A stretch of 34,869 bases of DNA from Bacteroidota bacterium. Its GTDB lineage: Bacteria > Bacteroidota > Bacteroidia > Bacteroidales > DYOH01. The notes beneath the pieces were generated by a model. That model ran no database searches. It was not told where the DNA came from and saw only the letters and a list, made by a program, of their open reading frames with translations. Position numbers and translations under genes: made by a program. The first letter of the stretch is position 1, and the number at the start of each line of letters is the position of its first letter. Shown in pieces: positions 14,588-18,984 of this stretch. The stretch is taken from contig JAIFMY010000032.1 of assembly GCA_020048155.1 (NCBI GenBank), forward strand, positions 1 to 34,869, in the 5' to 3' direction.

Positions 14588-14738
14588 ATAATTTTAAGTT
14601 AAGACTGTTATATGTATATTTATTTTATTCTAAGTTCAAAATTAGTATTTATCTTTTACTATGCATACATAATATTATTTTTTTATCTCCTTCAAATCAT
14701 TTTTAGTATCATATTTTAAAAATCATACTATCTATTTG

Positions 14739-14765
14739 TTTGTATGGTTTGTATGGTTTGTATGG
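14739..14765. repeat. Three tandem copies of TTTGTATGG
   Basis: Exact 9-bp units at 14739-14747, 14748-14756 and 14757-14765, followed by a T-run. It is a short slippage-prone repeat in a divergent spacer, ~150 bp upstream of the Fe-S operon start and ~230 bp upstream of the SiaC-like gene. Any regulatory role is unproven. Confidence 0.85.
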
Positions 14766-14863
14766 TTTTTAAAAAGCCCACTTCCAATATAATACAAATT
14801 TGAATGGCCAACAATGGGTATGTGCCATGCTCCACAAACAAAACAGAAATATTTGAAAAACAG

Positions 14864-14992: not shown

Positions 14993-15385
14993 ATGAATAG
15001 ATTCTACTTACAGCCTAAATCAAACTCTCCTGAAATAATGCTGGACGCCGAAGCCGGTATATTTGAAATAAAAGGACGCTCGCTTCCGGAAAACACAGAC
15101 TATGTGTACACCCCAGTACTTGATTGGCTCGACCAATACAAAAAAAGACCAAACGAAAGTACTACATTCGTATTCAAGATGTTGTACTTAAACACATCAT
15201 CGAAAAAAATGCTTCACGAAATTTTTGTGAAGCTTGAGCAATTGCATGCCATACATGGCCATGTTGAAATACATTGGTATTACGAAGAAAATGATTTGGA
15301 TATTATGGAAAATGGGGAAGAGTTTTGCTCATTGCTCAATATACCTTACAAACTTATTGAATTGCACGAAATAGAAGATGTATGA
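14993..15385 (+). CDS. SiaC-family regulatory phosphoprotein (DUF1987)
   Basis: 130 aa, full length for the family. Diagnostic segments are SNSPEIMLDAEAGIFEIKGRSLPEN (split here only by family variation), YTPVLDWLDQY, the LYLNTSSKKML motif and HWYYEENDLDIMENGEEF. Thr68 in NTSS matches the residue whose phosphorylation switches Pseudomonas SiaC; unphosphorylated SiaC binds and activates the diguanylate cyclase SiaD, with SiaB as kinase and SiaA as phosphatase. None of those partners is adjacent. Instead the stop overlaps the start of a Cys/Met PLP enzyme (ATGA), so the two are almost surely translated from one mRNA. The partner in this organism is unknown. Confidence 0.9.
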   Translation: MNRFYLQPKSNSPEIMLDAEAGIFEIKGRSLPENTDYVYTPVLDWLDQYKKRPNESTTFVFKMLYLNTSSKKMLHEIFVKLEQLHAIHGHVEIHWYYEENDLDIMENGEEFCSLLNIPYKLIELHEIEDV

Positions 15386-16581
15386 AAAAAAAAGTGAACA
15401 ATCTGAGGCCCCCACTATATCGTGACTCCGGATTTTTTTTTGAATCGGCAGATGACTTAAAAGCTGCTTTTACCGAAGAGGCATCGCACCCGATTGAGCC
15501 TACACAATATATATATGCACGCTACAGAACTCCTACACTGGTGGCATGTGAAGAAAAACTTGCCACCCTGGAAGATTCGAAATGGGCTCTGCTTACCTCG
15601 TCAGGTATGTCTGCAATCGATTTGGCCTTGGGTATTTTGCAAAAATCAAACCAAGAAAATAAATGGCTATTTCTTTCTGAGATATATGGCGGTACACATT
15701 CGTATATAGATAAAATACTTATTCCTCGCCGGGGTATTAACGTTATTCGTTTTTCGGCCACTCCAAGTCCAAACTATGCAGCCGGAAATTCAGAAATAGT
15801 ACCAATGGAATATAATTTGGAAAGGCTAGAGGGAATATTGCATATACAACGCCCTGCGGTATTATATTTCGAAGCTGTATCCAACCCTATGCTTATAGTT
15901 TCTGATGCCCGCGCCATCATAGCTTTGGGGAAAAAGTACAACTGCACCATCATAGTAGATAATACTTTTGCCACACCTTATTTGTGGAAACCCTTGCATG
16001 ATGAAGCAGATTTGGTAGTGCACAGTGTAACCAAATACCTGAGTGGGCATGGCGACCTTACCGGAGGCGTGTTGTGTGGCAACAACACTGATCTCATGCA
16101 GCAGGCTATTGAATATCGCAAGTGGGTGGGTTGCAATCTGTCGCCCGATGATGCTTACAGGCTACATTCGCAACTAGATACTTTTGAATTACGTTTTCGC
16201 CAGCATTGCTTCAATGCATTTGAACTCGCCCGATTTTTTTCTAATCACCCAAAAATTAGCACAGTAATATACCCTGGGCTCGATTCTGATACTTCGCACC
16301 TTCAGGCAGTTGGGCTTTTTCATGAAAATGCATTTGGGGGTATGCTAACCATTGTTCTGAAACCCAATTCAGAAAACAATGCAGTAGCAAAATTTACAAG
16401 CCTGCTTAGTCCCCATATTCCTATAGTGCCTTCGCTTGGCGATACCCGCACCACCCTTATGCCTATAAAGGCAGTATGGGGCGAAAAATATCCCATAGAT
16501 GGAGCTATTCGAATTTCGACGGGCATCGAAGATTCAAAAACCCTCATTGGTTATTTTGAGCAAGCACTGATGCAAATTTAA
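15382..16581 (+). CDS. Cys/Met-metabolism PLP-dependent enzyme (transsulfuration family)
   Basis: 399 aa, normal for the family. Motifs in order: YIYARYRTPT (45-52, phosphate-binding Tyr/Arg region), SSGMSAIDLAL (73-83), EIYGGTHSY (Tyr102 stacking on PLP), VDNTFATPY (Asp193 to the pyridine N) and HSVTKYLSGHGDLTGG with Lys218 as Schiff-base lysine. LGDTRTTLMPI near the C-terminus supplies the substrate carboxylate region. Members include cystathionine gamma-synthase, gamma- and beta-lyase, methionine gamma-lyase and O-acetylhomoserine sulfhydrylase; sequence reading cannot choose among them. The N-terminus (RPPLYRDSGFFFESADDL) fits the family. It is translationally coupled to the preceding SiaC-like gene (ATGA overlap), an unusual partner. 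Confidence 0.9.
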   Translation: MKKKVNNLRPPLYRDSGFFFESADDLKAAFTEEASHPIEPTQYIYARYRTPTLVACEEKLATLEDSKWALLTSSGMSAIDLALGILQKSNQENKWLFLSEIYGGTHSYIDKILIPRRGINVIRFSATPSPNYAAGNSEIVPMEYNLERLEGILHIQRPAVLYFEAVSNPMLIVSDARAIIALGKKYNCTIIVDNTFATPYLWKPLHDEADLVVHSVTKYLSGHGDLTGGVLCGNNTDLMQQAIEYRKWVGCNLSPDDAYRLHSQLDTFELRFRQHCFNAFELARFFSNHPKISTVIYPGLDSDTSHLQAVGLFHENAFGGMLTIVLKPNSENNAVAKFTSLLSPHIPIVPSLGDTRTTLMPIKAVWGEKYPIDGAIRISTGIEDSKTLIGYFEQALMQI

Positions 16582-16677: not shown

Positions 16678-18984
16678 ATGAAGCTTCGCAGCAAAATGAT
16701 AGTGTATATTCTTACCACAGCATTGCTCATCTATTTCATTGCTGTAGGTTACATCAGTTTCAACCTAAACCGCATCTCAGTAGACAATGCCAAAAGGTTG
16801 GCTCAGTCTGAAGCAGAAAACTATGCGAACGTGGTGAAAGGTGAATTGGAAGCAGATTTTGTAGCAACATTGTCATTGTCAAAATTTCTGGCCATATACA
16901 AAGACCTGCCGCGAAGCGTATGGGAACCCCTTTTGCTAAGTGTACACAGAGAATTGCTTGTTTCCAATCCCGATTTCCTATCGGTAGCTACCAGTTATGA
17001 ATACTATGCAATAGATACCACCTATAAAAAAGATTACGGTCGTCTGCAGCATGGATATTTTAGGGCTGGTCCTGTAATCACACAGATTCAGAAAGAGAAA
17101 AATATGGAAGGCGACGATATAGGAAGCAAGTATTATTATGCCAAAAGTAATAAAGCAACCTTGCTGCTTGAACCTTATTTCGATTCTTATACAGGCTTGG
17201 CTCAGGACTCTATGCTTATGTCGGGGTTTGCTGTACCTGTTATAGTCAACAATCAATTTGTAGCCCTTGCGGGTATAGATATTTCGCTGCAGCGATTTGA
17301 GAAAATGGTAAACAAAATCAAACCATTTGAAAACAGTTATGCATTCTTGGTAGCACACAATGGTACTTTTGCAGGGCACCCAAATTCATCGCTCATCAAT
17401 CAGCCAGTTAGCAAAGCCTTTCCTATGCTAGGTACTCAAGCCGAGGTGATTGCAAAAATATTGAATAAAGAGAAATTTTCACAAATTATAGAAGTTAGCG
17501 AAGGAGAAGAGGCATTTATTGTATTTGCTCCTGTACAAATAGAAGGAATAGAATACGCTTGGTCGTTGGGTATTGTAGTACCGGTGAGTGTGATACGTGC
17601 CGAAGCAAATAACAATATGATTATTTCAGCCTTGGTTGGTTTGGTGGGCATGCTAATCATGGTAGTGATTATCTTTTATATAGCCTCCAATATATCAAAA
17701 CCCATAAAGCGTGCAACAGATGTACTCAACAGGCTCTCCAACGGTGAAATTGCTGAGGATATACGGATGAAAATTAAAACCAAAGACGAGATTGGAGCTA
17801 TAAGCAATTCCATCAATATATTGCTCGATGCGTTTACGCGTATGGCTCAATTTGCCAAAGAAATAGGAAAAGGAAACCTAAACGTACAGTTCGAAAAACT
17901 GAGTGATAAAGACATTATTGGTGGTGCTCTAATTGAAATGCAGGGCAGCATCATAAAATCGAAATCTGAAGAGATGTACCGTGCTGAGCAAGAACATATA
18001 AACAACTGGTCTACACAGGGTCAGGCCCACCTTGCCGAAGTACTGCGTATGAACACAGAGGACTTATCGAAACTAAGCTTTGAGATACTTAAAAATCTGG
18101 TTCAGTATATTAAAGCCGAAATGGGGGTTTTCTACGTCATAAACGACGAAAAGTACAATGAGCTGATACTCGAATTTGCTGCCAGCTATGCCATAGACCC
18201 TGATAGCATAAATGAAAAATCGATTGAATTTGGTGTTGGACTCATAGGCAGGTGTGCTCAGGAAAAAGAAACTCTGCTCTTATTTGATATACCGGGTGAC
18301 TATATAAAAATAAACTCAGGTTTAGGCCAAATACAGCCTCAAAGCATACTTATTGTTCCTCTTTTGTTTAATACTGAAGTAAATGGTGTGGTTGAAATTG
18401 CATCCTTCAGACGTATCTCACAATACGAAAAAGAATTTATTGAAAAAGCAGGAGCCAGCATTGCTACAACGCTTTCTAAAGTTAAAACCAACATTCGGAC
18501 TTCGAAACTTTTGCTCGAAACCAGAATCAAATCAGAAGAATTAGCTGCTCAAGAAGAGTTGCTCAAGCAAAATATGCTAGAAATAATGAATGCTCAGAAG
18601 GATGCTGCGCTCAAAACCTCAGAGCTTTCGAGTATACTTGACGCTGTGAATTCAATTTCATTTGTGGCTGAATATGATATGGATGGTCGATTGATGAGTA
18701 TAAACGACACCATGCTCAAATTTACCGGTATGAAACGTGAGCAACTGATTGGAAAATTCCAAGGGCAATTCAATGTAGACAGTGTGCAAAACTCAGAAGA
18801 ACATGTTTTATTTTGGCAAGACCTTCGTGCGGGGATTAGCAAAAGACTTATTCAACATGTGCGTATCAACGAAAAGGAACTTTGGATTTCTGAAGCATAT
18901 ACCCCGGTTTACAATGAGAAAGGTGTACCTTATAAAGTATTGAATATTTCGGTGGATATAAGCGATTCATATAAGAACAAGTAA
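16678..18984 (+). CDS. Membrane sensor with Cache, HAMP, GAF and PAS domains but no output domain
   Basis: 768 aa. A TM helix at ~7-27 is followed by a periplasmic dCache-type domain (~35-305; note YFDSYTGLAQDSMLMSGFAVPV and GIDISLQRFEKMV), a second TM at ~313-336, a HAMP domain (~337-390), a HAMP-like relay (KEIGKGNLNVQFEKL, ~394-424), a GAF domain (~462-603), a coiled coil (~604-650) and a PAS domain (~650-765) that ends the protein. No histidine kinase, GGDEF, PP2C or chemoreceptor signalling domain is present, and the stop follows the PAS domain directly. It starts 96 bp after the PLP enzyme and may share its transcript. It may signal through a partner protein; a SiaA-like role is suggested by the nearby SiaC but the phosphatase domain is absent. 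Confidence 0.88.
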   Translation: MKLRSKMIVYILTTALLIYFIAVGYISFNLNRISVDNAKRLAQSEAENYANVVKGELEADFVATLSLSKFLAIYKDLPRSVWEPLLLSVHRELLVSNPDFLSVATSYEYYAIDTTYKKDYGRLQHGYFRAGPVITQIQKEKNMEGDDIGSKYYYAKSNKATLLLEPYFDSYTGLAQDSMLMSGFAVPVIVNNQFVALAGIDISLQRFEKMVNKIKPFENSYAFLVAHNGTFAGHPNSSLINQPVSKAFPMLGTQAEVIAKILNKEKFSQIIEVSEGEEAFIVFAPVQIEGIEYAWSLGIVVPVSVIRAEANNNMIISALVGLVGMLIMVVIIFYIASNISKPIKRATDVLNRLSNGEIAEDIRMKIKTKDEIGAISNSINILLDAFTRMAQFAKEIGKGNLNVQFEKLSDKDIIGGALIEMQGSIIKSKSEEMYRAEQEHINNWSTQGQAHLAEVLRMNTEDLSKLSFEILKNLVQYIKAEMGVFYVINDEKYNELILEFAASYAIDPDSINEKSIEFGVGLIGRCAQEKETLLLFDIPGDYIKINSGLGQIQPQSILIVPLLFNTEVNGVVEIASFRRISQYEKEFIEKAGASIATTLSKVKTNIRTSKLLLETRIKSEELAAQEELLKQNMLEIMNAQKDAALKTSELSSILDAVNSISFVAEYDMDGRLMSINDTMLKFTGMKREQLIGKFQGQFNVDSVQNSEEHVLFWQDLRAGISKRLIQHVRINEKELWISEAYTPVYNEKGVPYKVLNISVDISDSYKNK

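Follow-up and report, generated by a model that had tools for sequence, protein, structure and literature searches.

A SiaC-family switch gene paired with a Cys/Met-family PLP enzyme gene in one family of Bacteroidales

In the SiaABCD system of Pseudomonas aeruginosa, SiaC binds the stalk of SiaD through N67, T68, S69, M75 and neighbouring residues and thereby activates it, unless T68 has been phosphorylated by SiaB, which blocks the activation (PMC8457831, PMC7647112); SiaA removes the phosphate. Met75 is among the residues that touch the SiaD stalk (PMC8457831). Activation of the diguanylate cyclase SiaD is the one established output of SiaC. SiaC and STAS proteins are related in structure (PMC7647112, PMC8457831), and the paper describing the SiaC-SiaD structure puts forward modulation of adjacent proteins as a common role of DUF1987 proteins (PMC8457831). 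At the locus described here a SiaC-family gene lies directly upstream of a gene for a pyridoxal phosphate (PLP) enzyme. No paper on the subject was found in open-access full text; subscription journals could hold one.

The gene pair and its products

The window, that is the whole stretch of 34,869 nucleotides analysed, corresponds to contig C205 in a draft genome of 3.92 Mb with 91% completeness. Its forward strand carries at 14993..15385 a gene for a SiaC-family (DUF1987) phospho-switch protein of 130 amino acids, which matched PF09345 with an E-value of 5.5e-37 (126.5 bits, Pfam cut-off 24.5) and aligned over nearly its whole length with the P. aeruginosa SiaC chains 6kko and 6k4f (E about 6e-14; phmmer against solved SiaC, 6.4e-14). 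The motif Y65-L-N67-T68-S69-S70 is in register with that of P. aeruginosa SiaC, placing the phospho-threonine at exactly residue 68 with its number unchanged, and Y65, N67, T68, S69 and S70 are all kept. The equivalent of the SiaB/SiaA target is encoded by an ACA codon at 15194..15196 (+). In an alignment of 60 SiaC domains, position 68 was Thr in all three PLP-linked proteins and in 50 of the 57 others, the remaining seven carrying Ser. Both N67 and T68 are kept in all three PLP-linked proteins, and the conservation of this pair of residues makes phospho-control of the window SiaC, by a kinase acting in trans, likely. The same alignment revealed a histidine at position 75, in helix alpha-2 (codon at 15215..15217, +), that is confined to the PLP-linked proteins: all three carry it, and the 57 others do not. 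His75 occupies the position at which P. aeruginosa SiaC contacts its partner and fits a changed binding partner, a weak indication, two of the three carriers being close relatives.

The SiaC stop codon TGA overlaps the start codon of the next gene in the tetranucleotide ATGA (15382..15385, +), an arrangement that may allow translational coupling. This second gene (15382..16581, +) encodes a Cys/Met-metabolism PLP enzyme of 399 amino acids (PF01053, E = 7.8e-72; 242 bits, Pfam cut-off 27), a member of a subfamily almost confined to Bacteroidales, with 46-55% identity to 80 relatives. The canonical PLP-fold residues that were checked (Y45, R47, Y102, D193, S215, T217, K218 and R377) are all present and are invariant in 79 relatives. 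Lys218, the Schiff-base lysine identified by alignment with methionine gamma-lyase structures, lies in the motif HSVTKYLSGHG and is encoded at 16033..16035 (+). The enzyme reached no NCBIfam equivalog cut-off for the named Cys/Met enzymes (CGS, CGL, MGL, OAHS and OSHS), the best score being 225.8 bits against 477. It has Gly at the active-site position that is Cys in known methionine gamma-lyases. Enzymes of the PF01053 type are in general catalytically self-sufficient, and sequence comparison of the PLP enzyme revealed neither an insertion nor a docking element that is specific to the family and shared within it.

The initial annotation had described a SiaC-like gene with Thr68 kept, its ATGA overlap with a Cys/Met PLP enzyme gene and the absence of adjacent siaA, siaB and siaD, and in all three points it was correct; none of the three sia genes occurs on the window contig, where profile searches for DUF6272/SiaB, SpoIIE and GGDEF gave no match. 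Its label for the enzyme holds at the level of the Cys/Met PLP family (PF01053); the term 'transsulfuration-type' is inexact, since no equivalog cut-off was reached.

Other features flank the pair. Upstream of the SiaC gene, the intergenic region contains a perfect 9-base tandem repeat, GTTTGTATG, with 3.4 copies (14738-14768). After a gap of 96 bases beyond the PLP gene, positions 16678-18984 encode a membrane sensor with dCache, HAMP, GAF and PAS domains and no recognised output domain. A grouping of SiaC with this sensor was considered and rejected, as the sensor is not kept beside SiaC in a relative of the same family (G001). Scans for sigma-70 promoters and Rfam families gave no usable result.

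SiaC switches and diguanylate cyclases in the genome and its relatives

The window genome encodes 13 SiaC domains and 10 DUF6272 (SiaB-like kinase) domains, one of which was tested and scored 168 bits against a cut-off of 85 for SiaB-family kinases. SpoIIE was matched 62 times, in some cases by fragments of a single gene; the SpoIIE/PP2C phosphatase matches are put at about 60. Of the 13 SiaC domains, eight sit with SiaB and five, the window SiaC included, stand alone; many orphan SiaC genes adjoin unrelated genes. Groups of SpoIIE, SiaB and SiaC genes were located on contigs C191, C192 and C55, representing SiaA-SiaB-SiaC operons without SiaD. No GGDEF domain was matched in the window genome at E ≤ 0.001, under conditions where control genomes matched as expected, and none was found in six relatives, of which two belong to the same family and four to the order; five of the six are 97-99% complete. 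These relatives carry 11-23 SiaC domains and 20-44 SpoIIE matches each. A large SiaABC-type network with no SiaD is thus present in these Bacteroidales.

The absence of GGDEF domains from the genome and from six relatives excludes the classical SiaD output there, so that another target is needed. That the window SiaC nevertheless activates a diguanylate cyclase encoded elsewhere, as family membership and the kept Thr68 could suggest, is already contradicted by these searches; the protein also missed the NCBIfam equivalog cut-off for SiaC of the SiaABCD biofilm system (NF038265) with 82 bits against 150, and the idea retains hardly any credibility. As far as draft genomes reach, a c-di-GMP route from the window SiaC to surface attachment is excluded, and the link to attachment that had been suggested for the pair finds no support, its known route having been lost. 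SiaB and SiaD homologues elsewhere in the genome, which might have accounted for the protein, do so in part: the 10 SiaB domains explain a kinase input in trans, and there is no SiaD to provide the output.

Several further arrangements were observed within this network. A natural SiaB-SiaB-SiaC fusion forms one protein of 499 amino acids (L013:5998-7497), with similar frames of 509-535 amino acids in relatives. Pairs of SiaB and SiaC genes lie beside a gene for a large protein of 1026-1059 amino acids (L010:5382-9636 and L009:5397-9529), an arrangement kept in G001; this large protein, whose L010 copy has ABC-transporter ATPase and ABC-2 membrane domains, is itself a candidate SiaC output. SiaC genes also occur without SiaB in tandem runs of two or three, at L224:5800-7032 (G139:C8) and L219:5900-6715 (G026:C12).

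Conservation of the pair

Eight of the 198 genomes searched, comprising the window genome and relatives from its order, carry the PLP subfamily at an E-value of 1e-60 or better, the window genome being one of the eight. Three species of the window's family were found, namely the window genome, G001 and G002, and each of them has the pair. The SiaC gene lies directly upstream of the PLP gene on the same strand in both relatives, at a gap of 24 bases in G001 and 5 bases in G002; the 4-base ATGA overlap itself is therefore not conserved. A scan of 84,980 species yielded 80 loci of the enzyme subfamily, nearly all from Bacteroidales and including cultured Marinifilum, Labilibaculum and Ancylomarina. 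SiaC was near the PLP gene in only one of these (L091, matching the G002 contig) and was absent from the neighbourhood in the other 79. The coupling that the initial annotation had looked to relatives to share thus recurs in three species of one family and is missing from 79 of the 80 subfamily loci.

The usual context of the enzyme gene is a different one. In 51 of the 80 loci the near neighbours include a DmsB/DmsC-like protein, and in 46 a DmsA-like molybdopterin subunit (L049-L128), so that the PLP enzyme and a Dms-type molybdenum reductase apparently form a conserved operon in about 50 of the 80. The window enzyme falls in the sequence clade of this DmsAB-linked Bacteroidales subfamily (tree; 46-55% identity). 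There are no DmsA- or DmsB-like genes at the window locus, and no close DmsA was found in the window genome at E ≤ 1e-40. In a single case (L219:5900-10172, G026:C12) two SiaC genes follow DmsA-DmsB in the place usually taken by the PLP gene, which lies elsewhere.

The three PLP-linked SiaC proteins formed one clade (support 97/67; 98% of bootstrap trees), and a branch with an SH-aLRT support of 92 set apart the PLP enzymes of the same three genomes; the branches were long. One old pairing within the family is the simplest reading of these trees. A twofold origin, suspected since the window SiaC had looked closer to other paralogues, was rejected because the tree unites the three proteins.

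In G001 and G002 the SiaC gene follows two tandem RelA/SpoT-like genes (L041/L042), in the order RSH-RSH-SiaC-PLP, which raises the question of whether a (p)ppGpp enzyme is the partner of SiaC. The RSH pair of the window genome is, however, on another contig, where it is followed by genes reading as Fur and PurA, and such RSH proteins occur throughout the order. An RSH partner is accordingly very improbable, and the link was set aside.

Within three positions of SiaC, the window genome and G001 have no other gene in common. Two further SiaC genes that lack a SiaB partner (L014/L192 and L017/L200) kept neither neighbour within the family. Retention of adjacent gene pairs between the two genera was sampled by setting 206 kb against 1.34 Mb: 10 of 40 pairs were kept, as were four of 10 tight codirectional pairs, the SiaC-PLP pair itself being among those four. 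At 13 SiaC genes per approximately 3,300 genes, simple arithmetic predicts a chance SiaC neighbour for a given gene in about 0.2-0.8% of genomes, and one lineage with such a chance pairing among tens would not be surprising. With a background retention of 25-40% and chance adjacency in somewhat less than 1% of genomes, retention of the pair across two genera gives moderate, not strong, support for a functional link.

These figures bear directly on the possibility that the genes are chance neighbours, an orphan SiaC paralogue having arrived in front of the PLP gene by a single event in the family ancestor and been inherited since, with SiaC acting elsewhere. The 11-23 SiaC domains per genome, the many orphans beside unrelated genes, the confinement of the pair to one lineage and the background rate of retention all fit such a history, for which we would allow a substantial chance, somewhat short of even. 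Against it, strand and order have been kept through a complete turnover, between genera, of the other genes within three positions, the gaps have stayed at 24 bases or fewer, and His75 is common to the three PLP-linked proteins.

A possible functional link and its relation to known systems

The pair is real, and represents a variation on the SiaC theme in one bacterial family; the functional link between its members is a candidate only. We consider the odds of a genuine link between SiaC and the PLP enzyme to be evenly balanced. The link is favoured because the same order and strand occur in G001 and G002 while the other flanking genes within three positions have changed (G001), and because the two other SiaB-less SiaC genes kept no neighbour. 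It is also favoured by the agreement of the PLP clade with the three-member SiaC clade, in which N67-T68 is kept and His75 is unique at a partner-contact position, by the lack of GGDEF domains, by the SiaA-SiaB-SiaC operons without SiaD and by the published proposal on DUF1987 neighbours (PMC8457831). It is weakened because the pair is absent from 79 of the 80 loci, its retention is not striking and chance could account for the adjacency; further, the PLP family is self-sufficient, the enzyme has no evident docking element and the ATGA overlap is not conserved. The original suggestion that the phosphoprotein acts on sulfur amino-acid metabolism thus gains from conservation in three species and the lack of GGDEF, and loses from the absence of the pair in the other relatives checked, with chance adjacency a serious rival.

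If the link is real, a putative two-gene operon would couple a SiaC-type partner-switch phosphoprotein to a Cys/Met-family PLP enzyme in one Bacteroidales family. A SiaB-like kinase encoded elsewhere, presumably among the 10 SiaB domains, would phosphorylate Thr68, and one of the approximately 60 SpoIIE/PP2C phosphatases would remove the phosphate. The target of unphosphorylated SiaC would then be some protein that is not a diguanylate cyclase; the co-translated PLP enzyme is the best single candidate, either as partner or as co-regulated output. Direct control, in which unphosphorylated SiaC binds the enzyme and switches its activity, is an unlikely form of this proposal; if true, a kinase-phosphatase-SiaC cascade would govern a sulfur amino-acid enzyme with neither a second messenger nor a transcription step. 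In a weaker form the operon would serve co-expression only, keeping a signalling hub protein and a metabolic enzyme at linked doses, with no contact between the products. The overlap or short gaps and the lack of a docking element in the enzyme agree with such an arrangement, which does not account for the use of this SiaC in preference to a SiaB-linked one and which we likewise hold to be improbable. Bacteroidales that are rich in SiaC and lack a diguanylate cyclase raise the wider question of the outputs of these switches, and the present pair, in which a SiaC gene has stayed with an enzyme gene across two genera, offers a concrete and easily tested candidate target.

Among described systems, SiaABCD is matched in the SiaC family itself, in Y65, N67, T68, S69 and S70 and in the presence of SiaB-family kinases and SiaA-like phosphatases in the same genome. 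The window genome differs in having neither SiaD nor any GGDEF domain, and the window SiaC in being paired with a PLP enzyme and not with SiaA or SiaB. The combination of a GHKL kinase, a PP2C phosphatase and a STAS-like switch recalls SpoIIAA/SpoIIAB/SpoIIE and RsbV/RsbW/RsbU, in which the switches are STAS anti-anti-sigma factors, whereas here there is no known sigma factor or anti-sigma target. The enzyme shares PF01053 and all canonical PLP residues with cystathionine gamma-synthase, methionine gamma-lyase and O-acylhomoserine sulfhydrylase. Unlike the named Cys/Met enzymes, it reaches no equivalog cut-off, and its relatives adjoin a DmsAB-type reductase.
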